Assembly: GCF_003173735.1 (NCBI RefSeq)
Contig: NZ_CP029551.1
Span: 3,682,001-3,746,000 of the forward strand
Length of the DNA stretch: 64,000 nt
Source of the DNA: Methylobacterium radiodurans
GTDB lineage: Bacteria > Pseudomonadota > Alphaproteobacteria > Rhizobiales > Beijerinckiaceae
Reading direction: 5' to 3'
Shown here: positions 20,015-36,702 of the stretch, in pieces
How the letters are laid out: every line of letters begins with the position of its first letter
How positions within the stretch are numbered: position 1 is the stretch's first letter
The notes under the pieces: generated by a model
Told to the model about the DNA's origin: nothing
The model's input: only the letters and a program-made list of their open reading frames with translations
The model's database searches: none
Program-made: the position numbers and the translations under genes

Positions 20015-22090
20015 TCAGCCCGGCGCCCGGGATGTCAGGCGGTAGAACGCCCCGAGGCCGGCCAGGAACACCGCGAGCCCGAGCCAGGTCGCGGCCGGCC
20101 CCTCGAAGCCCAGAGCCAGCACGCCGGAGCGGCCCGAGAGCCAGTCGGCCCCGGCGAGCAGCACGCCCACGCAGCTTTCCCCGACGAGGAAGCCCGAGGC
20201 CAGCAGCACGCCGCGGCGGCGCGCCGCCTCGACCGCCCCCTCCCGCGCCGCCTCCGGGGTGCGGCGGCGCAAGCGACGCTCGGCGAGCCAGCCCAGGATG
20301 CCGCCCAGCGCGATCGTCATCTCGACGCTCAGCGGCAGGTACATGCCGATGCCCACCGTCAGCGCCGGGAAGGTGAGGCCGCGCCGGCGCAGCCGCGCCT
20401 CCAGCGCGACCAGCACCACCCCGAGCCCGAGCCCGATCAGCACCATGGTCCAGGGCAGCGAGCCCCCGACGATCCCGGTGGCGATCTGCGTCACCAGCGC
20501 GGCCTGGGGCACCGCCATGGCGGATTCGCTCGCCATCCCCTCGCGCGGAAGGGCACCCACGAAGCCGTAGGCCTCGTAGAGCAGCGCCATCAGGGGCGCG
20601 ATCACGGCCGAGCCCACGACCACGCCGACGATCAGTACCGCCTGCTGCCGCCAGGGCGTCGCGTCGACGAGCTGGCCGGTCTTGAGGTCCTGCAGGTTGT
20701 CGTTGGCGATCGAGGCGGTGGTGACGATGACCGCGGCGACCAGCAGGGCGACCGCCACCACGAAGCGCTCGCCCTCGGGGCCGGCAGCCCGGCCGAGCAG
20801 CAGCGGCAGCAGGAGGGCGGCCGCCATGGTGGTGAGGATGCCGATCCCCGAGATCGGGCTCGACGAGGAGCCGAGGAGCCCCGCCAGATAGCCGCAGGCC
20901 GCCGCCATCAGGAAGCCGAAGACCAGCACGAACAGGGTGAGGACGCCGACCAGCACCGGCAGCATCCCGCCGAGCCCGGCCCCGCCCGCGAAGCTCCAGA
21001 CCAGCCAGGCCAGCGGCAGGCTCAAGAGCAGCGCCCCCCCGGCGATCCAGGGCAGCGGCAGATCCCGCTCCTGGCGGGGCAGCTGGCGCATGGAATGCTC
21101 CGCCCCGGCCGCCCGGGCGCTCTCCAGCGCCGAGCGGACGCTGCCGAGGATCGGCCGCGCCAGCGAGCCCACGGTCCAGAGGCCGCCCACCGCGATGATG
21201 CCGGCCCCGATCAGGCGGACCTGATCGGCCCAGACCGTCTGCGCCGCCTCGGCCGGGGCCCCGGCGTGCTCGCCGAGCGCGGTGAGCACCGGCACAGCGA
21301 TGCCCCAGGCGATGACGACTCCTGTGAGCACCGCGAGGCAGGCCCCGATGCCCACGAGGTAGCCGACGCCGACGAGCGCCAGCGAGAAGCCGGTGCCGAG
21401 CCCGAACACGGCGCCGCCCGCGACGAACGCGCCCCGCACGCCCTCGGCCAGCACCTTCAGCCCGTTCGTGGCGAATCCGACGAGCCCGGCCGCGGCGGCG
21501 GCGGTCAGCAGCGTGGCGAGGCCGCGCTCGCTCCGCCCGCCGGACCGCTCCTGCCCGTGGTGGCCCTGTTCTTCATGGCCCTGCTCCTGCCCGGTGCGCA
21601 GCACCTCGGCGGCCGCGACGCCCTCGGGGTAGGGCAGGCCCTGGCCCATCACGAGTGCGCGGCGCAGCGGGATCGAGAAGGCGACGCCGAGGAGGCCCCC
21701 GATCAGCGTGATGCCGGCCGTCTCCCAGAACGGGAAGCCGTGCCAGTGCCCGATCAGCACGAGGCCGGGCAGGACCAGGATGACGTTGCAGAGCGTGCCG
21801 GCGGCCGAGGCCTGCGTCTGCACGATGTTGTTCTCGAGGATGCCCGCGCCGCCCAGCAGCCGCAGGCAGCCCATCGAGATCATCGCGGCGGGGATCGAGG
21901 ACGAGAAGGTCATCCCCGTCTTCAGGCCCATGTAGACGTTGGCCGCCATGAACACGACGGTGATCGCCGCGCCCAGCGCGAGGCCCCGGGCGGTGATCTC
22001 GGCGGCGTCCCGGTGCGGCGGTACACGGGACCCGGCCGCAGTAGGCCGGTCCGCGGCGTCTCGGGTGGCTGTCGGGGTCGAGGGGTCCAT
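20015..22090 (-). CDS. OPT-family oligopeptide/metal-chelate transporter
   Basis: A 691-residue polytopic transporter of the OPT superfamily. Family motifs include an N-terminal NVYMGLKTGMTFSSSIPAAM and the central SIANDNLQDLKTGQLVDATPW; many hydrophobic helices (about 14-16) are visible. A long cytoplasmic loop after residue ~170 is rich in His, Gln and Glu (GQEQGHEEQGHHGQE), possibly metal-binding. ATG 22090 has a GGAG site eight bases upstream. Bacterial members carry peptides or metal-peptide chelates; the substrate is unknown. Confidence 0.9.
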   Translation of the reverse strand: MDPSTPTATRDAADRPTAAGSRVPPHRDAAEITARGLALGAAITVVFMAANVYMGLKTGMTFSSSIPAAMISMGCLRLLGGAGILENNIVQTQASAAGTLCNVILVLPGLVLIGHWHGFPFWETAGITLIGGLLGVAFSIPLRRALVMGQGLPYPEGVAAAEVLRTGQEQGHEEQGHHGQERSGGRSERGLATLLTAAAAAGLVGFATNGLKVLAEGVRGAFVAGGAVFGLGTGFSLALVGVGYLVGIGACLAVLTGVVIAWGIAVPVLTALGEHAGAPAEAAQTVWADQVRLIGAGIIAVGGLWTVGSLARPILGSVRSALESARAAGAEHSMRQLPRQERDLPLPWIAGGALLLSLPLAWLVWSFAGGAGLGGMLPVLVGVLTLFVLVFGFLMAAACGYLAGLLGSSSSPISGIGILTTMAAALLLPLLLGRAAGPEGERFVVAVALLVAAVIVTTASIANDNLQDLKTGQLVDATPWRQQAVLIVGVVVGSAVIAPLMALLYEAYGFVGALPREGMASESAMAVPQAALVTQIATGIVGGSLPWTMVLIGLGLGVVLVALEARLRRRGLTFPALTVGIGMYLPLSVEMTIALGGILGWLAERRLRRRTPEAAREGAVEAARRRGVLLASGFLVGESCVGVLLAGADWLSGRSGVLALGFEGPAATWLGLAVFLAGLGAFYRLTSRAPG

Positions 22091-22175
22091 CAGGCTCCGG
22101 ACGGGCAGCGCGCCCCACGGGCGATGGGGGACGGGCTCGTGGCAGCGCGGAACACCGGATGAACGTCCCTCGGGC

Positions 22176-23420
22176 TCAACCTGCCAGCGCCGGGCGCGTT
22201 CCGGGCCTGCCCACTTGGTCGCGCCCGGTGGATCGGTCGCGCCCCGCGGATCGGCGCGCAACGTCGCCGACCCCGCGCCAAGTGCCGCGCCCCTCGGACT
22301 TCGCCGCGTAGAGCGCGACGTCGGCCGCGATCTGCAGGTCCTGCAGGCTCTCCCCGTCGCCGGGGAAGCGGGCGAAGCCGACACTGCCCCCGACCCGCAC
22401 CGTCCGCCCGGCGAGGTCGAGCGGCGCGGCGAGGGCGCGCACGATCCGCTCCGCGATCCTCGCATCCTCCGCGCCCATCCGCTCCCGGAAGAGCAGGAGC
22501 GCGAACTCGTCCCCGCCCAGGCGGGCGGCGACGTCGTCCGGACCCAGGACGGACCGGAGCCTGTCCGCCACCGCGACCAGCACCGCGTCGCCCGCGGCGT
22601 GGCCGTGAGTGTCGTTGATCGCCTTGAAGCGGTCGAGGTCGATCAGCATCGTCGTCAGCTCGCCCTCGCCCCGGGCGGCCCGCGCCAGCCTGTCCTCGAA
22701 GGCCTGCCTGTAGGCCGCGCGGTTGGCGAGGTCCGTCAGGGGATCGTGGTTGGCGGCGTGGTCGAGCTGCCGCATGGCCTGCGCGGCGGCGACGTTGGCG
22801 CGCTGCAGGGACGCGGCGAGGTGGTCCGCCTCGTGCCTCAGGCGCGCGGTGGCCACGTAGCTCCGCTCCGCCAGGCCGGCCGCCCGCACCATCATGAGGG
22901 TCAGGAGCGTCATGTTGATGCCCATCACGACCGCCTGCAGCGACCCCGCGCCTAGGCAGATCAGGATCAGGACGCTGCAGCTGGGGAGCACGAAGGCGAG
23001 GGTCGATGCGCGATCCGTGCGGTTCTGTATGACCGCGCCCGCGTTGATGCCGCAGAAGGTCAGACCCGTCGCGATGGTGTAGGCTTGGCCGACCTGCGCG
23101 CAGGCCACGAGCGCCGCGGTCCAGCACAGGCCCGACAGCAATGCGCCGATCCAGGCGAAGTTCAGGATCGCACCGGGCGCGGTGTCGAGCAGGCCCCGCT
23201 GGCGCACCCATCGGGCGATCCAGAGGCGCGCGAGATTGATGGCGGCGTTGAGCACGGCCCAGGCCCCGATCAGGCCGGTCGGAAGGCTGCCCCACATCAT
23301 GGTGCAGAAGGACAGCGAGACGAAGATGTTCGAGAGCAGCGTCAGCGGCAGCGACGCCAGGAGTGTGTCGGCCCGGTCGCGCAGCACGAGATGGTCGACG
23401 GGGTCGGGTTGTGCAATCAT
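22176..23420 (-). CDS. Membrane-bound diguanylate cyclase (GGDEF)
   Basis: A 414-residue inner-membrane protein that makes c-di-GMP from two GTP. About six membrane segments occupy residues 20-190, a short coiled helix follows, and the GGDEF domain spans about 225-385, beginning DHAANHDPLTDLANRAAYRQ. The catalytic motif RLGGDEFALL is intact near residue 302. The upstream product-inhibition site RxxD is not preserved: GPDD occupies that position, so feedback by c-di-GMP through the I-site is unlikely. There is no EAL domain. The start ATG 23420 has no strong ribosome site. Confidence 0.92.
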   Translation of the reverse strand: MIAQPDPVDHLVLRDRADTLLASLPLTLLSNIFVSLSFCTMMWGSLPTGLIGAWAVLNAAINLARLWIARWVRQRGLLDTAPGAILNFAWIGALLSGLCWTAALVACAQVGQAYTIATGLTFCGINAGAVIQNRTDRASTLAFVLPSCSVLILICLGAGSLQAVVMGINMTLLTLMMVRAAGLAERSYVATARLRHEADHLAASLQRANVAAAQAMRQLDHAANHDPLTDLANRAAYRQAFEDRLARAARGEGELTTMLIDLDRFKAINDTHGHAAGDAVLVAVADRLRSVLGPDDVAARLGGDEFALLLFRERMGAEDARIAERIVRALAAPLDLAGRTVRVGGSVGFARFPGDGESLQDLQIAADVALYAAKSEGRGTWRGVGDVARRSAGRDRSTGRDQVGRPGTRPALAG

Positions 23421-27335: not shown

Positions 27336-28484
27336 TCAGGCGCCGCCCACCGGATAGCTGCGCCCCTTCCAGGTCGCGGCGCCGGCGCGCTCGCGGCGCA
27401 GCAGCACGTTCCACTGGATGGCGAGCGCGGTGAGCACGATCACCGGGTGCAGCGGGATCGTCGCCGCCGGCTCGCCGGTGCCCAGCGTCACCGCCGCCCG
27501 GGTGCCGAGCGAGAGGGCGAGCGCCGCGAGCGCGTACCCGAAGGCCGCGGGCGGCAGGGCGCCGAGGAGCCCGGCCGCGACGAGCCCCCAGGGCAGGACG
27601 TGGCCGAGGAGCAGCAGCACCGTCCAGACCGGCAGGGCGCGGGGCGTCGCCATGCCCTCGTGGGCGTTCTTCGAGAAGCCGGCCCAGGCCTCGCGGAACC
27701 CGCCGTACATCCGGCACAGCGCGAGGTCGCGGCCCGCCGCGAGGTCGGTGCGCAGGCCGTGGCGGCGGAACAGACGGGGCAGCCGCACCCCGTCGTGCAG
27801 GGAGGCCCGGATGGCGCCGTGGCCGCCGGTCTCCTCGTAGGCCGCGCGCGTCGTCAGGATCATCTGCCCGCAGGCCGCCCCGAGGCTCGGGTGGAGCGAG
27901 CGGCGCATGGCGAGGACCGGCAGGTAGCCGACCAGCAGCAGGTTGATCATCGGCACGGTCAGGCGCTCGCCGGTCGTGTCCATGCGCTGGCGCGGCACGG
28001 CGCTGACGAGGCCCGCCCCGCCCCGCCGAGCCTGGGCGGCGAGGCGCGCGGCGGCCTCGGGCGCGAGCTGCACGTCGGCGTCGATGAATAGCAGGTGCTC
28101 GCCCCGCGCCCGGGTGGCGAGGTAGGCGCAGGCGTTGTTCTTGCCGGTCCAGCCCTCGGGAAGCGGCGGCACGGATTCGAGGCGCAGGCGCGGGTCGCGC
28201 TCCGCCGTCGCCCGCACGAGCGCGGCGGTGCCGTCGGTCGAGTGGTCGTCGCCGACCACCACCTCGACGTGCGTGCCGGTGCTGGCGAGCGCGGCCGCGA
28301 GCGTCGGGCCGATCCGCTCGGCCTCGTTGCGGGCCGGGATCAGGATCGAGACGAGGCCCGAGCCGCCCGGTTCGGGCTCCGGCGTGCGCAGCAGCGCGAG
28401 GTTGAGGGCGGCGAAGAGCGCGGGCTGGAGCGCCACGATCAGGCAGGCGAGCGCCAGCCCGGTGAGAAGGGCGTCGGCGGTCAT
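27336..28484 (-). CDS. Family 2 glycosyltransferase, probable carotenoid (CrtQ-type) glycosyltransferase
   Basis: A 382-residue membrane-bound GT2. There is an N-terminal membrane segment (residues 3-30), then the catalytic domain with VSILIPARNEAERIGPTL, GDDHSTDGT and the DxD motif HLLFIDADVQL. The acceptor-site region reads ASLHDGVRLPRLFRRHGLRT (a DDG-like DG), then C-terminal membrane helices from about 285. Family resemblance is to the CrtQ glycosyltransferases of C30 carotenoid pathways. It follows the acyltransferase gene by 38 bp, matching the glycosylation-then-acylation steps known for such pigments. Position and family both support the call; the sugar is unknown. Confidence 0.8.
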   Translation of the reverse strand: MTADALLTGLALACLIVALQPALFAALNLALLRTPEPEPGGSGLVSILIPARNEAERIGPTLAAALASTGTHVEVVVGDDHSTDGTAALVRATAERDPRLRLESVPPLPEGWTGKNNACAYLATRARGEHLLFIDADVQLAPEAAARLAAQARRGGAGLVSAVPRQRMDTTGERLTVPMINLLLVGYLPVLAMRRSLHPSLGAACGQMILTTRAAYEETGGHGAIRASLHDGVRLPRLFRRHGLRTDLAAGRDLALCRMYGGFREAWAGFSKNAHEGMATPRALPVWTVLLLLGHVLPWGLVAAGLLGALPPAAFGYALAALALSLGTRAAVTLGTGEPAATIPLHPVIVLTALAIQWNVLLRRERAGAATWKGRSYPVGGA

Positions 28485-28492
28485 GAGGTCCT

Positions 28493-28530
28493 GATCATGG
28501 GTTCTGGATCACGGGTTCTGGATCATGGGG
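28493..28530 (-). repeat. 14-bp tandem repeat between glycosyltransferase and acyltransferase genes
   Basis: gatcatgggttctg (28493-28506) and gatcacgggttctg (28507-28520) are followed by gatcatgggg (28521-28530). The third copy contains the acyltransferase stop codon. Confidence 0.8.
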
Positions 28531-29443
28531 CGGGCTCCCGGGGACCGTCCTCGGCCGCGCGCCCGTGCGCGGGGTCGAAGCGGCGGCCGGCGACGAGCGC
28601 CCGGAGCCGCCGCCAGAGGTCGTAGATCCCGCCGATCCCCTTACGGCCGGCGACAAGCTCGCGGAAGCGCTCCGGCTCGCGGGCGATCACGTCGGCGCTG
28701 AGCCGGTCGAGGGTCTCGGTCAGGTTCCGCTCCAGCCGGGCGAGGCGCTCGGCGCGGGGCAGGGCGACGAGGTCGCGGGCTAAGATCGGCGCGCCGAAGG
28801 CCGCAAAGGCCTCCGCGCCGCGCTCCTCCCAGAAGGCGTATTCGAGAGCCAGCGGCAGCACGAGGGCGTCGGGGGCGATCTCGGGCAGGCGGGCGACGCC
28901 GGGGCGCAACGCCAGCGGCCGGGCGCGCACGTCGCTGAAGCGCCCCTGCGCGGTGATCCAGAGCATCCGGTGCGGTGCCGCGAGGATGGCGCGGGCGTGG
29001 GCCAGGAACGCGGCGGCCCCGCGCGGGCTGTCGAGATCGACCCCGAAGGCGCCCATCCGCTCGAAGATGCGGTACTTGCCGAGCACAGCGGCGTCGAAGG
29101 GGGCGCGGCCCTCGCGGCCGGGGAAGAGTTTGCCGGCCAGCACGATCAGCACGGCGGCGTCCCACCAGGCCGGGTGGTTGCAGTAGACGACGATGGGCCC
29201 CGCGTGGTCGAGCCCCTGCGGCAATCCCCAGCGGGCGAGGCGCAGGGCGTTGAGGTGGCGCCCCACGAAGCGCTCGAAATAGCCCAGCATGAACCGCCAG
29301 AGCCGGGGCGAGACGGGGTGCAGGTCGGCAACGAGGCGTCGTCCGGATCTCGCTTCCGCCACGCGCCGCGCCTCCGCCGGGGCGGCGCGCGCGCCGCCCT
29401 CGGGTTCAATCCGGGGCAGGGCAGGGGGTTCGGACAGCGTCAT
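28523..29443 (-). CDS. PlsC-like acyltransferase, probable carotenoid acyltransferase
   Basis: A 306-residue acyltransferase of the lysophospholipid acyltransferase superfamily. The HX4D catalytic motif is in VVYCNHPAWWDAAVL, and a glycerolipid-site-like segment follows in LWITAQGRFSDVR. There is no strong signal peptide; hydrophobic stretches suggest peripheral membrane association. It lies between the carotenoid desaturase-like gene and the CrtQ-like glycosyltransferase, on the same strand. The natural inference is acylation of a glycosylated carotenoid, as in staphyloxanthin-type pathways. A phospholipid role is the alternative. Confidence 0.75.
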   Translation of the reverse strand: MTLSEPPALPRIEPEGGARAAPAEARRVAEARSGRRLVADLHPVSPRLWRFMLGYFERFVGRHLNALRLARWGLPQGLDHAGPIVVYCNHPAWWDAAVLIVLAGKLFPGREGRAPFDAAVLGKYRIFERMGAFGVDLDSPRGAAAFLAHARAILAAPHRMLWITAQGRFSDVRARPLALRPGVARLPEIAPDALVLPLALEYAFWEERGAEAFAAFGAPILARDLVALPRAERLARLERNLTETLDRLSADVIAREPERFRELVAGRKGIGGIYDLWRRLRALVAGRRFDPAHGRAAEDGPREPAP

Positions 29444-29495
29444 GCGGCTCCTGCCCGCCCGACGTTCCAGGGGACCGGCCGCGGCGGGTGCGCAT

Positions 29496-29757
29496 CCCCT
29501 CTCCCCGCGCGCGGGGAGAGGGCCACGTCTCCCCCTGGTCGGGGAGCGTGGCGAGGCGGCAGCCGATGGTGAGGGGGCGGTGCCGGAAGAACTCCCTCCG
29601 TCGATGCCACCTCATCGCCGCTGCGGCTTCGCCTCCGCTTCCTGTCTGCACGACAAGGTGCAGACAGGCCTCTCCCCGATCGATCCCGGGCCTGCCCGGG
29701 ATCGACACCGGGGGGCCGAAGTCGGGTAGACCCGACTGCGGGCGGGGAGAGGGGGGC
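29496..29757. repeat. Composite-hairpin intergenic repeat, family 2; fills a 349-bp gap
   Basis: The stretch 29444-29792 holds no gene. It carries a CCCTCTCCCCGC/GCGGGGAGAGGG hairpin (from 29497), a segment with gccgctgcggcttcgcctcc, a TGTCTGCAC/GTGCAGACA hairpin, GATCCCGGGC/GCCCGGGATC, and a closing ggcggggagaggg. The order matches the copy at 46940-47138. It interrupts the carotenoid operon between the second desaturase and the acyltransferase. Confidence 0.8.
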
Positions 29758-29792
29758 GCCGCTCCATCCGGTCCGAATGCCCGGCAGCGGCC

Positions 29793-31355
29793 TCATGCCG
29801 ACTGGCGCAGGCCGCCCCGGGCGTCCTGATCGTGCGCGTCGGCGGCGATCCAGCCGGACATCATCACCATCGGCATCCCCGGCCCCGGATGGGCGGCGCC
29901 GCCCGCGAGGTAGAGGTTGCGCACCTGCCGCGAGCGGTTGCCCGGCTTGAAGGCGCCCATCACCTTGCCGTGCGAGGCCAGCCCGTAGATCGCGCCGTTC
30001 AGCACCTTGTAGCGGTCGTGGATGTCCTGCGGCGTCAGGTGCCGCTCGACCACGATGCGGTCCTCGATGTCGTGGAGGCCGGCGGTGCGCTTGAGCTTGT
30101 CGAGGATGACCTGCCGGTAGGCCGGGAACATCTTCGACCAGTCGTGGTGGGGCCGCAGATAGGGCGTGTGCACCAGGACGTAGAGCGCCTCGCCGCCGTC
30201 CGGCGCCACGGAGGGGTCGGTGGAGGAGGGGGCGGCGAGATAGGCGGTCGGGTCCGGCGCGGGCTCCCCCTTCCGGTAGATCCAGTCGAACTCTTCTTCC
30301 GGATCGCGCGAGAACACGAAGTCGTGGTGGTTCAGGTGCTCGTAGCGCTTGTTGAGCCCCAGATAGAGCACCACGCCCGAGCAGGCGGGCTCGGGGTTCT
30401 TCTTCTCGTAAGCCCGGCCCGCCTCGCCGCCGACCAGTTCTTTGTAGGTCCGCACCGAATCCATGTTGGAGATCACGGCGTCGAAGGCGGTGGTGCCTGC
30501 CTGCGTCCGCACGCCCCGCACCGCGCCGTTCTGGATGTCGAGGCCCGTCACCTCGGAGCCGGGCTTGAGGGTCGCGCCGAGCTCGCCCGCGAGCTTGGCC
30601 AGCGCCTCGGCCACCGCGCGGGTGCCGCCCATCGGGTACCAGACCCCGTCCGCCGTCTGCATGTGGGCGATGGCGCAGAGCACCGCGGGCGCGCCGTAGG
30701 GCGAGGAGCCGACATACTGCACGAAGTGGTCGAGCATCTGGGCGAGGCGGGCATCCTTCACCTTGCCGCGGATGGTGCTGGCGACCGAGGCGTGCATGCG
30801 CAACGACAGCACGTCGCGCAGGGTGCCGGGGTTCATGTTCGCCCGGATGTTGATCGTGTCGAACAGGTCCTCGACCGGCTTCCAGAAGAAGAACCGCTCC
30901 GAGACCCCGTGCAGGTGCTCGGAGATGGAGATGAACTTCTTGTAGCCGTCCCCGGCGCCGGCGCCCGGCACGAAGCGGTCCATCTCCGCCGCCATGGCGG
31001 CGACGTCCTGCATCAGGTCGATCTGCGTGCCGTCGTCGAAGAAGCAGCGCCATTGCGGGTCGAGGCGGCGCAGGTCCAGGTAGTCGTTGATGTCGCGGCC
31101 CGCCTCCGAGAAGATCCGCTCCAGCACCCGGGGCACCGTGAGGATGGTCGGCCCCATGTCGAAGCGGAAGCCGCCCTCGTGCAGCACCGCGGCCTTGCCG
31201 CCGAGCCAGTCGTTCTTGTCGTAGAGGGTGACCCGGTGCCCGCGCGCCGCCGAGACGCAGGCGGCGGCGAGCCCGCCCAGGCCGCTGCCGATGACGGCTA
31301 CGGAGGAACCGCCCGAGGAACCGTCGGAGGGACGGGCAGGGAAACCGGAACTCAT
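29793..31355 (-). CDS. Phytoene/diapophytoene desaturase-family oxidoreductase (second copy)
   Basis: A 520-residue FAD-dependent carotene desaturase or oxidase of the CrtI/CrtN/CrtP/CrtD family. The N-terminal FAD motif is VAVIGSGLGGLAAACVSAA near residues 19-37, followed by WLGGKAAVLHEGGFRFDMGP, the family substrate-site landmark. The C-terminal signature is LYLAGGAAHPGPGMPMV. The first ~17 residues are a Ser/Gly-rich extension. Whether it desaturates, or oxidises a terminal methyl (CrtP-like), cannot be told from motifs. It is downstream of the ABC exporter genes, on the same strand as the other CrtI-like gene. Confidence 0.87.
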   Translation of the reverse strand: MSSGFPARPSDGSSGGSSVAVIGSGLGGLAAACVSAARGHRVTLYDKNDWLGGKAAVLHEGGFRFDMGPTILTVPRVLERIFSEAGRDINDYLDLRRLDPQWRCFFDDGTQIDLMQDVAAMAAEMDRFVPGAGAGDGYKKFISISEHLHGVSERFFFWKPVEDLFDTINIRANMNPGTLRDVLSLRMHASVASTIRGKVKDARLAQMLDHFVQYVGSSPYGAPAVLCAIAHMQTADGVWYPMGGTRAVAEALAKLAGELGATLKPGSEVTGLDIQNGAVRGVRTQAGTTAFDAVISNMDSVRTYKELVGGEAGRAYEKKNPEPACSGVVLYLGLNKRYEHLNHHDFVFSRDPEEEFDWIYRKGEPAPDPTAYLAAPSSTDPSVAPDGGEALYVLVHTPYLRPHHDWSKMFPAYRQVILDKLKRTAGLHDIEDRIVVERHLTPQDIHDRYKVLNGAIYGLASHGKVMGAFKPGNRSRQVRNLYLAGGAAHPGPGMPMVMMSGWIAADAHDQDARGGLRQSA

Positions 31356-31468
31356 CTGCTACGCTCCTGGGGAACGCCCGGGCGGGACAGCGCCGGGGCT
31401 CAAGCTGACGGGGGGCGGGAGCGGCGTCAACGCGCCGCCGCGCCGCGCGGGTGAGAGGGGCTGGCGGC

Positions 31469-32665
31469 TCATGCGGCCCGCCGGGACACGAGGGCGAGCG
31501 CCGCGCCGAGGCCAGCGAGCGCCAGGGCGGCGAGCACGCCCCAGGCGAGAAGCGCGGCGCGCGCGCCCTCGCCGAGCGCGCCCTGGAAGGCTTCGATCGC
31601 CCAGGCGTTCGGGGTGAACCAGCCGGCCTGCTGCAGCCAGGGCGGCATCAGGAAGCGCGGCACCATGCTGCCGCCGACCGCCGAGAGCAGCAGCACGCCG
31701 AAGGTGGCGAAGAGATGCGCCTGCTGGCGCGTGGCGGCCGCCGCGCAGGCGGCGAGCGCCAGCCCCGCCGCCGTGGCGGCGACGAGCCCGCAGGTGGCGA
31801 GGAAAGCCGGCCAGTGCGGACCGATCGTGACGCCGTGGAGAAGGGCCGCCGCGCCGAAGATCAGCCCGGCCTGGACCACGCCCTGGAGCGTCAGGAACAG
31901 GAACTTGCCCAGCACGATCACCCGCAGCCCGCCGGGCCCGGCGCTGAGCCGGTCGGCGAGGCCCGACTCGCGCTCCTCGACCAGCGAGAGCGCCCCCTGC
32001 ATGGCGGCGAACAACAGGAACACCGCGGCGATCGCCCCCGCGTAGTAGCTCACCCGGGCGTTGCCGGCGGCCGCCGCGGTGCTCAGGCGCTCGACCAGCG
32101 CCGAGAAGCTGAAGGGCTCCTTCTTCGCGCGCTGCTCCGCGAAAGCCTCGTTCAGGAAGGCGCGCTCGTCCGGCCCGATCTTGCCGGTGCGCTCCACGTC
32201 CGCGACGATGCGGGAGAGCACCACGTCCGGCAGGGCCTCGTTCAGCACCCGCTGGAGCTGGCCCAGCGCGATCGGGGCGGCGAGCGCCTTGGCGGGGTTC
32301 TCGACGAGCACGACCGGGTGGGCGGCGGCGGCGCCCGAGGGCGCCGCCGCGAGATCGCCGCGCAGCACCAGCGCGACGTCGACCTCGCCCGCGCGCACCG
32401 CCTGCGTGGCGGCGGCGAGGTCTGCGGGCAGCCGGGTGACGCGCAAGCTGGTGTCGGCCTCAAGCGCCGCGGCGAGGCGGATCGTGGCCGGCGTCCCCGC
32501 GAGGTCGGAGAGGCCCAGATGGATGCGGATGCGGTCGCCGACCGCGCCGGAAAAGATCGCCGCGAAGATCGCGAAGATCACGGTCGGCAGCACGAAGGCC
32601 ATCACCAGGGCAGCGCGGTCGCGCAGCAGGGTCAGGGTCATCACCCGGAAGGCCGCGCCGATCAT
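31469..32665 (-). CDS. ABC-2 type exporter permease
   Basis: A 398-residue membrane component. An N-terminal helix ([20 protein letters not shown]) is followed by a large extracytoplasmic domain (about residues 45-220), then five C-terminal helices with [27 protein letters not shown], a characteristic ABC-2 segment. The start overlaps the ATPase stop by four bases, so the two subunits are coupled. It sits between the two carotenoid desaturase-like genes. Export or flipping of a lipid-like product is plausible, but the substrate is unknown. Confidence 0.88.
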
Positions 32666-33648
32666 CGGGCCGGCTCCAGGGCGGGCGCGCGGACCGGCGC
32701 GGCGGGGGCGGGGGTCTCCAGGGCGTCGCGGTAGAGGGCCTCGAGGCCGGGCGCGCGCACCCGCACCTCGCGCACCGGCACGCCCTCTTCGCGCAGGCGC
32801 CCGAGCAGAGCGGCCCCGTCGAGGCGCCGGCCCGTCCCCGCTCCGCCGTGAGCGCCGGTCTCGCGCCAGGCGAGATCGGCGTCGGGCGCGAAGCCGGCCC
32901 GGCGAAGGGCCCGCTCGGCGGCCTGGTCGGGGATGTCCGAGAGCAGGAGCTCGCGCTCGGGCGGGCCGGCGGCGAGACCCGCCAGCAGGGCGGCCAGCGG
33001 TCCCTCGCGCACGATGCGGCCGCCGCGCAGGAAGGCGACCCGGTCGGCCAAGCGCTCGGCCTCGGTGAAATCGTGGGTGGCGACGAGGATCGCGGTGCCC
33101 GCCCGGCGCAGGCGCCGCAGCATCGCGTGGATCGCCGCGCGGGCGGCCCGGTCGACCCCCTGCGTCGGCTCGTCGAGCAGGACGAGGGCGGGCCGAGCGA
33201 TCAGGCCGGCCGCGATGTTGACCCGGCGCTGATAGCCGCCGGAGAGCTGCCCGACGAGACTCCGGGCCACCGTCTCGATGTCGGCGAGCGCCAGCATGGC
33301 GGCGACGGCCGGCGCGCGCTCGCGGCGGGGCACGCCCGCAAGGCTCGCGAAGACGCCGAGATTCTCGGCCACGCTCAGGCGCGGCCAGAGCGCGATCTCC
33401 TGGGGCACCCAGCCGACGGCGCGGCGCGCACCCGCATCCGTGCGCGGGTCGCGGCCCGCCACCCGCACGGTGCCGGCACCGGGGGCGAGGCGGCCGGCGA
33501 CGAGCCGCATCAGCGTGGTCTTGCCGGCCCCGTTCGGCCCGAGCAGCGCCAAGATCTCGCCCTGGCCCAGCGCGAGGTCGAGCCCGGTGAGGACCGGCCG
33601 TCCGCGATAGGCGAGGGCCAGGCCGGTGCAGGCGAGGAGCGGCGCCAC
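32662..33648 (-). CDS. ABC exporter ATP-binding protein
   Basis: A 328-residue ATPase. Walker A is GPNGAGKTT (near 37-45), the Q-loop follows at [11 protein letters not shown], and the signature is [12 protein letters not shown]. Walker B is [12 protein letters not shown], with the H-loop in [15 protein letters not shown]-terminal extension of about 90 residues goes beyond the core. It pairs with the overlapping permease gene. It starts 4 bp after the DUF2141 gene stop, making a continuous transcript from the CrtI-like gene. Confidence 0.92.
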
Positions 33649-33652
33649 CGGC

Positions 33653-34072
33653 TCAGTGCCGGGGCAGGGCGCGGACGAGCCGCACCCGGATCGCCGCGCC
33701 GGGCTCGCGGAGCGCGAAGGCGGCCTCCTCGAAGCTCGGCCGTGCCCGCCGGCCCGTGCCGCCCGACAGCCCGTAGGGCTCGGTCGGCAGGCCGAGGCCG
33801 GTGCGGCCGAGCCGGCCGTCGCCGTCGCGGTCCTGGTAGGCGGCGACCGCGTAGGTGCCGGGGGGGACGCTCGCGAACACGAAGGTCCGGGCCTCCGCCG
33901 TGCCCGGCGCCTCCTGCCCGAGGGTGCAGGCGGCCTCCGACAGACCGCCCTGGCAGAGCGTGACGTAGACCGCGCCGCCGCCGGGTTCGATGCCCTCCAC
34001 GGTGACCTGCACGCCGGCCGCCTGGGCGGGGAGGGGGAGGAAGAGAGCGAGGGCGAGGAGGGCGCCGCGCAT
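33653..34072 (-). CDS. Exported DUF2141-family protein
   Basis: A 139-residue secreted protein: signal peptide MRGALLALALFLPLPAQA, then a beta-rich domain. Family landmarks are AVYVTLCQGG, FVFASVPPGTYAVAAYQDRDGDGRLGR, and PTEPYGLSGG near the C-terminus. The DxDxDG loop (DRDGDGRLG) resembles a calcium-binding loop. Two Cys (LCQ and ACTLG) may pair. The start lies five bases past the desaturase stop, with GAGGG just before ATG. The function of the family is not known; its placement inside the pigment operon suggests a linked envelope role. Confidence 0.8.
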   Translation of the reverse strand: MRGALLALALFLPLPAQAAGVQVTVEGIEPGGGAVYVTLCQGGLSEAACTLGQEAPGTAEARTFVFASVPPGTYAVAAYQDRDGDGRLGRTGLGLPTEPYGLSGGTGRRARPSFEEAAFALREPGAAIRVRLVRALPRH

Positions 34073-34077
34073 CTCCC

Positions 34078-35661
34078 TCACGAGGCCTCGCCGCCGGTGG
34101 CCAGCGGGGCCGTCTCGGGCAGCCCCGCGCTCGCGGGGACGCGGGCGCCGAGCAGATCCTCGATCAGCAGGCGGGCGGAGATGCGCGCGCCCTCGTAGAT
34201 CACCGGGAGGCCCGAGCCCGGATGGGTGCCGCCGCCCACGAGGTACAGCCCCGGCCCGAACTTGTTGTGCGGGCGGAACCACAGCATCTGCATCAGGTCG
34301 TGGGCAAGGTTGAAGGTGGCGCCCTCGTGCACCGCGAAATCGTCGCGCCACTGGGTCGGATCGACGATGCGCTCGTAGCGGATGCGCGATTCGAGGTTCT
34401 CGATGCCGAGCAGCTTCAGCCGCTCCAGCACCAGGGCCCGGTAGCCGTCGCGGGTCGCCGCCCAGTCGATGCCGGCCTTCAGGTTCGGCACCGGCACCAG
34501 CACGTAGAGGGCGGTGTGGCCGGGAGGCGCCATGCCGCCGTCGGTGAAGCCCGCGTGCTGCACGTAGACCGAGGGCTGCATCGGCAGCGTGCCCTCGGTG
34601 ATCTCCCGGATGTTCCGCTCGTACGCCTCGGCCAGCAGGATGGTGTGGTGGCCGAGGCCGGCCGGCATCGGGCCCTCGATGCCCAGATAGAGCATGAAGG
34701 TCGAGCAGGAGAGGCGGGCCTTGGCGACCTTGGCGTCGCGCCAGCGCGGGCGGCGCGCCTCCGGCACCAGCTCCGGCACCACCTTGGCGAAGTCGCCGTT
34801 GATCATCACGGCGTCGGCCCGCAGGGTCTCGCCGCCCACCACCACGCCGACCGCCTTCTTGCCCTCGAACAGGACGCGCTCGACGCTCGTGTTCAGGCGG
34901 ATGTCGACGCCCATTCGCCGGGCGAGCCCGGCCATCGCCTCCGAGACCGCACCGCAGCCGCCGACCGGGTGGTAGACCCCGTGCTCGTACTCGAGGAACG
35001 AGAGGATCGTGAACAGGCTGGGACAGCGGAAGGGCGACATGCCCAGGTACTTGGTCTGGAACGAGAAGGCGAGGCGCACCCGCGGGTCGGCGAAGTAGCG
35101 CCGCAGGTCCTTGTCCACGCTGCGGCCGGGATGGAGGTAGGGCAGGGCGGCCAGCATCGCCGGGCTCGCCATGCTGCGGAAGCGGTGGAAGGCCTGCTCC
35201 AGGACCGGCTTGAAGAAGGTGAGCTTGGTCCGGTTCTCGGCGAAGAACTTTTTTATGTTCCGGGCGTCGTCCGGGGCGATCCGGGCGACCTCCGCCTCCA
35301 GGCGCGCGACGTCGCCCGTGGCGCGGATCTCGCCGGAGACACCCTGGCGTCCCTGCGCGTCCTTGCCCTCGAAGACGAGGTGGTACTGAGGGTCGAGCCG
35401 CTCCAGCCGGACATGGTCTTCCAGCCGCTCGCCGCAGCTCTGGAAGATGTCGGCGAGGATCTGGGGATAGAGGAAGAAGGTCGGGCCGATGTCGAAGCGG
35501 TAGCCGCCGGGGGCCTCGACGGTCTTCGTGCGGCCGCCGACCTGGGCGTCCCGCTCGATCAGGGTGACGTGGAGCCCGGCGCGCGCCAGCAGCAGGGCCG
35601 AAGCCAAGCCGCCGGGCCCCGCGCCGACGATGACGACCCGGCGTCCGGAGAGCCTCCGCAT
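34078..35661 (-). CDS. CrtI/CrtN-type carotenoid desaturase, first gene of the pigment operon
   Basis: A 527-residue FAD-dependent desaturase that introduces conjugated double bonds into a C30 or C40 polyene at the membrane. The FAD motif is VVIVGAGPGGLASALLLARAG near the N-terminus, then RTKTVEAPGGYRFDIGPTFF. The C-terminal signature is LYLVGGGTHPGSGLPVIYEG. ATG 35661 is preferred over 35682 because of its GGGAGA site seven bases upstream. No squalene or phytoene synthase lies in the window, so C30 versus C40 is not decided here. Methylobacterium pigments are known to include C30 compounds, which makes that the better guess. Confidence 0.9.
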   Translation of the reverse strand: MRRLSGRRVVIVGAGPGGLASALLLARAGLHVTLIERDAQVGGRTKTVEAPGGYRFDIGPTFFLYPQILADIFQSCGERLEDHVRLERLDPQYHLVFEGKDAQGRQGVSGEIRATGDVARLEAEVARIAPDDARNIKKFFAENRTKLTFFKPVLEQAFHRFRSMASPAMLAALPYLHPGRSVDKDLRRYFADPRVRLAFSFQTKYLGMSPFRCPSLFTILSFLEYEHGVYHPVGGCGAVSEAMAGLARRMGVDIRLNTSVERVLFEGKKAVGVVVGGETLRADAVMINGDFAKVVPELVPEARRPRWRDAKVAKARLSCSTFMLYLGIEGPMPAGLGHHTILLAEAYERNIREITEGTLPMQPSVYVQHAGFTDGGMAPPGHTALYVLVPVPNLKAGIDWAATRDGYRALVLERLKLLGIENLESRIRYERIVDPTQWRDDFAVHEGATFNLAHDLMQMLWFRPHNKFGPGLYLVGGGTHPGSGLPVIYEGARISARLLIEDLLGARVPASAGLPETAPLATGGEAS

Positions 35662-35747
35662 GCCGTCTCCCGTGTGAAGCAACGCTCCCGTCTCCCCAAA
35701 CCCGCGCGGCCCGCGCCAGGGCCACGATACCCCCTTCGCTTACGGCC

Positions 35748-35847: not shown

Positions 35848-36702
35848 TCAGCAGTCTTCGCGCGCGTCCGGACCGGGTACAGGCGCCGGATGTAGGGCGA
35901 TCCGGCCGGTCGCGCCGGCCAGCCGGTGCAGGGCGAGCGCCCCCGCGGTCGCCACGTTGAGCGAGTCGAAGCCCGGCGCCATCGGGATGCGCAGGGTGCG
36001 GGCGCGCGCCATCAGGCGGGCGGGCAGGCCCGGCCCCTCGGTGCCCAGGAGCAGGAGCGCGCGGGCGGGGGCCTCCGCGGCGTCGAGCGTCTCGCGGCCG
36101 GAGGGGCTGAGCGCCAGCGGCTCGAGCGCGAGGGCTTCGGCGACCGCGAGCCAGTCCGCTCCCTCGGGCAGGCGCGCGAAGGGCGTGATCAGGGCGGCGC
36201 CCGCCGAGACGCGGATCGCCTTGCGGTAGAGCGGGTCGCAGCACGCGGCGTCGAGGAGCACGGCGTCGGCCCCGAAGGCGGCGGCGTTGCGGAAGCAGGC
36301 GCCGACATTGTCGTGGTTGGTCAGGCCGGCGAGGCCCAGCACCAGGGCCGGGGCGGGGGCCGGCGGCACCGGGGCGGCGGGCTCCGGCGCCGCGCCCGTC
36401 AGCCCCACCGCCAGCACGCCGCGGTGGATCGGGAAGCCCGCCACCGCGCTCATCACGGGCCTGCCCGCGAGGTAGACCGGCGCGCCAAGGCGGCCCACTA
36501 CCTCGGCCAGGCCCGGCCAGCGCTCGGGCGCCAGCAGCACGGATTCGGTGCGAAAGCGCGCGCCGGGCGAGGCCATCAGCCGGAGCGTGACCTCGCCCTC
36601 GACGATGAAGCGGCCCTGCCGCCCGACGAGGTCGCGCTCGCGCATGGAGGCGTAGGGGGCGAGCCGGGGATCGGCCGGATCGTCGATCGCGACGGGCATC
36701 AT
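35848..36702 (-). CDS. SpoU/TrmH-family RNA 2'-O-methyltransferase
   Basis: A 284-residue SPOUT methyltransferase that probably 2'-O-methylates a ribose in rRNA or tRNA. Motif 1 is TNHDNVGACFRNAAAFGADA with the catalytic Asn/Arg pair. Motif 2 is LLLGTEGPGLP, and motif 3 is IPMAPGFDSLNVATAGALAL. The N-terminal ~110 residues form the substrate-binding domain (MRERDLVGRQGRFIVEGE). Start ATG 36702 or 36699 are adjacent. The target nucleotide is not evident. It is upstream of, and separated from, the carotenoid operon. Confidence 0.93.
   Translation of the reverse strand: MMPVAIDDPADPRLAPYASMRERDLVGRQGRFIVEGEVTLRLMASPGARFRTESVLLAPERWPGLAEVVGRLGAPVYLAGRPVMSAVAGFPIHRGVLAVGLTGAAPEPAAPVPPAPAPALVLGLAGLTNHDNVGACFRNAAAFGADAVLLDAACCDPLYRKAIRVSAGAALITPFARLPEGADWLAVAEALALEPLALSPSGRETLDAAEAPARALLLLGTEGPGLPARLMARARTLRIPMAPGFDSLNVATAGALALHRLAGATGRIALHPAPVPGPDAREDC

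Follow-up and report, generated by a model that had tools for sequence, protein, structure and literature searches.

A candidate ABC exporter associated with C30 and C40 carotenoid gene clusters in Methylobacterium and other Alphaproteobacteria

The Methylobacterium radiodurans genome (a 5.54-Mb single contig, NZ_CP029551.1) contains a run of seven minus-strand genes in which the genes for an ATP-binding cassette (ABC) transporter and a DUF2141 protein are enclosed by carotenoid genes. The run lies in a 64,000-nucleotide stretch (positions 3,682,001 to 3,746,000), referred to here as the window, whose numbering is used below. It begins with a CrtN-type desaturase of the CrtI family (34078 to 35661; TIGR02734, 471 bits against a cut-off of 238, scanned as the reading frame from a TTG at 35682), followed by a DUF2141 protein (33653 to 34072; PF09912, 73.2 bits, exceeding the cut-off of 24.4), an ABC ATPase (32662 to 33648; PF00005, 110 bits), an ABC-2 permease (31469 to 32665; PF12698, 106 bits), a CrtP-type oxidase, again of the CrtI family (29793 to 31355; TIGR02734, 413 bits), a probable acyltransferase (28523 to 29443), and a family 2 glycosyltransferase (27336 to 28484; PF00535, 80 bits). 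Family matches and coordinates reproduce the order of all seven genes given in a first-pass annotation of this DNA. The spacings recomputed from the coordinates are 5 bp (CrtN/DUF2141), 4 bp (DUF2141/ATPase), and -4 bp (ATPase/permease), and CrtN to permease thus appear to share a single transcript, as that annotation had held. The downstream gaps are 113 bp (permease-CrtP), 349 bp (CrtP-acyltransferase), and 38 bp (acyltransferase-glycosyltransferase). In consensus scans of the locus, no sigma-70-like promoter was detected, and terminator-like sites numbered three, versus 1.8 expected by chance; the two coding-strand sites fall within the permease and CrtN genes.

The carotenoid cluster itself is already known from M. 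extorquens AM1, where a glycosyltransferase (META1p3663), an acyltransferase (META1p3664), CrtP (META1p3665), and CrtN (META1p3670) follow the window's order (PMC10448405). Their product is 4-[2-O-11Z-octadecenoyl-beta-glucopyranosyl]-4,4'-diapolycopenedioic acid; deletion of META1p3663 or META1p3664 alters the pigment, and deletion of META1p3665 or META1p3670 renders the cells colourless (PMC10448405). Genes for squalene supply (hpnCDE) have also been reported for M. extorquens (PMC10448405). The main text of that paper assigns no gene to the aldehyde-oxidizing (aldehyde-to-acid) step, and the enzymes present in the window accordingly leave the pathway incomplete. Nor does that text give a role to the genes numbered between META1p3665 and META1p3670, and the words "ABC", "transporter", and "DUF2141" are absent from that text (PMC10448405). 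The numbering leaves four genes, META1p3666 to META1p3669, among which the AM1 exporter and DUF2141 genes would be expected to lie. In related loci, the interval between CrtP and CrtN holds DUF2141, ATPase, and permease genes, in some cases with one further reading frame. In one such locus, a class I glutamine amidotransferase gene (PF00117; L025:9046-9891) lies between the permease gene and crtP; similar frames are present in some other Methylobacterium/Methylorubrum loci (L014, L015, and L021), and the window has no such gene.

The window's CrtN, CrtP, acyltransferase, and glycosyltransferase genes occupy the positions of their AM1 counterparts, and the glycosyltransferase-acyltransferase-crtP cassette with crtN close by marks the locus as a Methylobacterium C30 cluster. 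Among the best 80 of 562 CrtP loci, the nearest named ones by CrtP are those of Methylobacterium hispanicum, M. gregans, and M. dankookense (93% to 96% identity). Synteny across loci is part of the evidence for two of the enzyme names. The glycosyltransferase, called CrtQ-like in the first-pass annotation, was placed correctly as to class, but the activity implied by that name is not borne out by the curated cut-offs examined (CruG, 133 bits against 600; HpnB, 122 against 379). No Pfam or NCBIfam family matches the acyltransferase at E≤1e-3; it is named because it adjoins crtP and the glycosyltransferase gene, as META1p3664 does, and because it has an H-x4-D motif (HPAWWD, spotted by eye), which we take to be typical of such enzymes. 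An overlapping frame at 29440-31053 was considered as the second CrtI and rejected, having no family match; the correct frame is 29793-31355. By analogy with AM1, the product of the locus is best explained as the C30 carotenoid of M. extorquens, which is glucosylated and acylated and is a known pink Methylobacterium pigment.

To survey the genus, 111 genomes were searched for the permease, DUF2141, CrtN, and CrtP. Permease and DUF2141 genes are present in an identical set of 105 genomes, and all four genes in 104; G153 has permease, DUF2141, and CrtP with no CrtN match at E≤1e-200, and at the cut-offs applied G170 and G175 lack all four. Nearly all permeases (103 of 105, the exceptions being those of G149 and G153) and DUF2141 genes (104 of 105) are no more than 12 kb from crtN or crtP. 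The complete CrtN-DUF2141-permease-CrtP linkage is seen in 80 of the 111 genomes; in 19 others, CrtN, DUF2141, and permease remain a group from which CrtP is detached. For six of the 19, CrtP is on the same contig, 44 to 173 kb off, and the exporter and DUF2141 genes stay with crtN; in the remaining ones it is on another contig, and an assembly gap may explain several. G193 and G194 have the permease beside CrtP and DUF2141 beside CrtN, with permease and DUF2141 1.07 and 2.18 Mb apart, respectively. Since the genus loci share ancestry, these counts reflect few independent events. A second, independent view comes from a sample of loci on GTDB species contigs, chosen by CrtP (the 80 best loci mentioned above), in which 45 of the 66 Methylobacterium-type loci have all seven genes. 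In 14 of the 66, only CrtP, acyltransferase, and glycosyltransferase are within reach, five are partial, and two (L050, M. brachythecii; L061, M. haplocladii) have CrtN and CrtP and lack DUF2141 and the exporter.

Wider searches for the permease covered the family (149 genomes, E≤1e-20), the order (397 genomes, with profile A1), and the class (337 genomes, with profile A2), the latter two at E≤1e-50. In the order and class searches, four or five first-look candidates were scored per genome, and the exporter numbers are accordingly lower bounds. At least 17 genomes outside the genus carry the permease (5 in the family, 10 in the order, and 2 in the class), representing 13 genera and 10 families. 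The permeases in alignment A2 are 35% to 47% identical to that of the window, and the last two are about 39% identical in tblastn pieces. All 17 adjoin carotenoid genes and have an ATPase gene next to the permease gene. Synteny limited to this strain, which the first-pass annotation had named as a refutation of its transport proposal, is thus not what is seen: the tie of the exporter to carotenoid genes extends well beyond this strain, within the genus and outside it.

These 17 loci comprise 4 C30 and 13 C40 clusters and show at least seven arrangements besides that of the window. The four C30 clusters have four different layouts, none matching the window's: the exporter is divergent from CrtN (L093), upstream with DUF2141 on the opposite strand (L094), facing the glycosyltransferase without a DUF2141 match (L096), or downstream of the glycosyltransferase (L104). 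The 13 C40 loci contain varying subsets of lycopene cyclase, CrtI-type desaturase, phytoene synthase, and ketolase- or hydroxylase-type genes, the names CrtE, CrtW, and CrtZ being used here for Pfam class plus context. In 11 of the 13, crtE, ATPase, and permease are followed by crtW or crtZ on a single strand, with 4-bp overlaps at both the crtE-ATPase and ATPase-permease junctions in L102; L095 and L097 have the order ATPase-permease-crtY-crtW. One locus (L109) ends at a contig edge.

When all candidates were scored in eight genomes, the carotenoid-linked permease gave 452 to 563 bits in seven, and in the eighth (G749) its match was split into segments of 243 and 120 bits; no other permease in these genomes exceeded 57 bits. 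Four paralogous permeases from two genomes (G143 and G086; E 5e-9 to 4e-15), which form the whole of the negative control, have no crt match in the stretches fetched around them, one of which is 9.2 kb long. Close homology therefore predicts a carotenoid neighbourhood; belonging to the ABC-2 permeases of the same genome is not enough to do so. The exporter's carotenoid link is well supported by these comparisons. They also make it highly improbable that the exporter and DUF2141 genes are passengers beside crt genes through chance and shared ancestry. The single arrangement in most genus loci, with its non-independent counts, would suit such an explanation, but 17 of 17 distant copies are crt-linked, in 13 genera and several arrangements, versus 0 of the 4 paralogues.

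Walker A, signature, and Walker B motifs can be read by eye in the ATPase. Its best match among solved structures is ABCA4 (E 1.4e-61), and its score against the DrrA subfamily (TIGR01188, 188 bits) is below the cut-off of 312, so that it is not assigned to DrrA. The permease model (predicted local distance difference test score, pLDDT, 83.7) has helix 1 separated from the remainder of the protein by a large extracytoplasmic domain and resembles ABCH-9C with ceramide, NosY, and ABCA4 in fold; in sequence, the permease has no match to solved chains at E≤1e-3. On these models, the permease belongs to the type V (ABCA/ABCG/ABCH) lipid exporter class, with its ABC ATPase partner encoded alongside. 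None of the seven locus genes, to which the examination extended, encodes a substrate-binding protein. The type V transporters compared were ABCH-9C (ceramide), ABCA4 (retinoid-lipid), ABCA1/ABCA7, and NosFY, from which the window differs in its separate ATPase and permease genes and in their surroundings.

DrrA-type resistance pumps are nonetheless the nearest NCBIfam relatives of the ATPase, and a close relative of the permease has been named a linearmycin resistance permease, LnrM. These affinities raise the idea of a carotenoid-linked detoxification or overflow pump for reactive aldehyde, unfinished intermediates, or membrane-stiffening excess pigment; the pathway runs through aldehydes (PMC10448405), and carotenoid clusters without the exporter exist. 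We regard this as unlikely, as the resistance names are automatic and no obvious toxic intermediate is common to the C30 and C40 pathways, yet the pump is present in both.

A tree of 22 permeases contains one branch with the C30 copies (9) on one side and the C40 copies (13) on the other, with moderate support (ultrafast bootstrap 87; Shimodaira-Hasegawa-like approximate likelihood ratio test 94; recovered in 88% of 200 bootstrap trees) and long-branch warnings. G143 and G100 are of the same family as the window, yet their permeases group with C40 copies of other families, and that of G440, from another family, groups with the C30 copies. By these placements, the exporter seems to follow pathway rather than host, with the moderate support of the split. 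This bears on whether the substrate is instead a different lipid of the envelope (hopanoid, phospholipid, or glycolipid) that accompanies carotenoid, the clustering of the exporter reflecting a shared response to light or oxidative stress. Many lipids are handled by type V exporters, and Methylobacterium hopanoids have been reported mainly in the outer membrane (PMC5358736), but the pump sits inside crt runs of two pathways, no other lipid genes were identified beside it, and the permease tree follows pathway type; such a role appears quite doubtful.

The DUF2141 protein has a hydrophobic N-terminal start ending in AQA (by eye), suggesting a probable signal peptide, and two cysteines that are invariant across 24 alignment rows. 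Its AlphaFold2 model is beta-rich (pLDDT 87.8), and structure comparison of this model gave no firm relative. DUF2141 accompanies C30 clusters at varied positions: in the genus, in three of the C30 exporter loci outside it (L093, L094, and L104), in 9 of 14 Microvirga/Salinarimonas-type loci, and in L189 and L226. The latter two, from two other alphaproteobacterial families, are whole C30 clusters with DUF2141 and no exporter match. None of the 13 C40 exporter loci has a DUF2141 match, and the nine Microvirga/Salinarimonas-type loci with DUF2141 have it without the exporter; DUF2141 is therefore separable from the exporter. The first-pass annotation had suggested a joint role for the two, and its interpretation is changed in this respect. 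At most, a fair guess is that DUF2141 is a periplasmic accessory or helper for a polar carotenoid, seen in C30 clusters.

The wider DUF2141 family was examined in 110 stretches around other alphaproteobacterial DUF2141 genes, covering 115 of 117 listed places (the remaining two being genus genomes). Since 105 of the 110 have no crt match and just 5 have one, DUF2141 as a general carotenoid family was rejected; the 5 are a lower bound, because many stretches are cut by contig ends and crtG was not among the queries. L186 and L203 have DUF2141 with crtB and crtP-type genes, and in L114 (1730-7575) DUF2141 adjoins a C40 run, crtY-crtI-crtB-crtZ. DUF2141 genes have been found beside crtG in Sphingomonadales (PMC5989583, PMC9241875). 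There too a member of this Pfam family neighbours a carotenoid gene and is given no role in the passages concerned, but the neighbour is a C40 hydroxylase gene rather than a C30 cluster, and those passages note no exporter (PMC5989583, PMC9241875). The DUF2141 family is named in only three of the open-licence PMC papers covered.

We lean towards reading the ATPase and permease as a dedicated, accessory transporter that exports the finished polar carotenoid, with DUF2141 as a periplasmic helper in C30 producers. The enzymes would finish the pigment at the cytoplasmic leaflet, from which a homodimeric type V (ABCA/ABCG/ABCH-like) transporter would pick it up and flip or extrude it to the periplasmic side. 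From there, the pigment would either span the inner membrane correctly or proceed to the outer membrane, and DUF2141, as an exported, presumably disulphide-bonded beta-domain protein, may aid the periplasmic side. Whether this family of type V ABC transporters, spread over Hyphomicrobiales and another alphaproteobacterial lineage, serves as a dedicated polar-carotenoid exporter for C30 glycosyl-acyl carotenoids and C40 ketocarotenoids alike, setting the pigment's leaflet or membrane, seems to us evenly balanced. The earlier idea of carotenoid transport is partly supported, and we infer that it stands in broadened form: the tie to carotenoids agrees with the linkage and the lipid-exporter fold, but since 13 of the 17 copies outside the genus are in C40 clusters, the exporter is not specific to the glycosylated, acylated C30 pigment.

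Several observations weigh against an exporter of carotenoids. A type V fold fixes neither substrate nor direction, the split in the permease tree has the limits given above, and open-licence PMC papers yielded no transport, localization, or mutant data for the exporter genes. In addition, some carotenoid clusters lack it. The permease is absent from all 14 loci of Microvirga, Salinarimonas, and other Hyphomicrobiales in the GTDB sample, and four of the 111 genus genomes (G049, G130, G184, and G218) carry CrtN and CrtP at a short distance from each other without DUF2141 and permease. CrtW was found in 15 of 317 genomes of the order, of which 6 also carry the exporter; the other 9 (8 of them of one genus) have no permease around CrtW. 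Carotenoid synthesis thus does not need the exporter, which is an accessory to carotenoid clusters. Together with L050 and L061, these four genus genomes, with crtN near crtP, represent natural deletion strains for DUF2141 and the exporter.

Judged by open-licence PMC papers, the exporter's consistent association with both carotenoid pathways seems new, save for a remark on Fulvimarina pelagi, in which ABC and major facilitator superfamily (MFS) transporter genes adjoin crtZ and crtY (PMC4962014, 2016). There too an ABC transporter gene neighbours genes for a C40 carotenoid, astaxanthin, but the remark is one sentence giving no family, function, or C30 link (PMC4962014), and the comparison is by description only. 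A putative carotenoid transporter of Sphingomonas astaxanthinifaciens is noted in the same passage (PMC4962014). In the Corynebacterium glutamicum operon crtE-cg0722-crtBIYeYfEb, a gene for a putative membrane protein, cg0722, directly follows crtE and is co-transcribed with the carotenoid genes (PMC3598387). In that case, however, the host is Gram-positive. We take cg0722 to be of another transporter class.

If the proposed function is true, no bacterial carotenoid exporter with a defined gene family would have preceded it. Our searches found no settled account of how very hydrophobic pigments are moved across or between Gram-negative membranes, and a small, well-bounded transporter family tied to two pathways turns this question into a gene-deletion experiment in a laboratory strain; G049, G130, G184, and G218 are strains naturally without the genes. 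Pigment production, where storage and export are relevant, could benefit.

In two Microvirga C30 loci (L067:8836-9918 and L070:8822-9916), a methyltransferase-domain gene (PF13649) immediately precedes crtP, at the place taken by the exporter in Methylobacterium, and resembling frames are present in L071 and L074; this enzyme could convert the C30 diacid to methyl esters. Elsewhere on the minus strand of the window are genes for an OPT-family oligopeptide transporter (20015-22465; PF03169, 350 bits) and a GGDEF diguanylate cyclase (22176-23420; PF00990). Upstream of CrtN is a SpoU-family RNA methylase gene (35848-36702, minus strand; PF00588), and similar-looking frames precede CrtN in L050 and L061.

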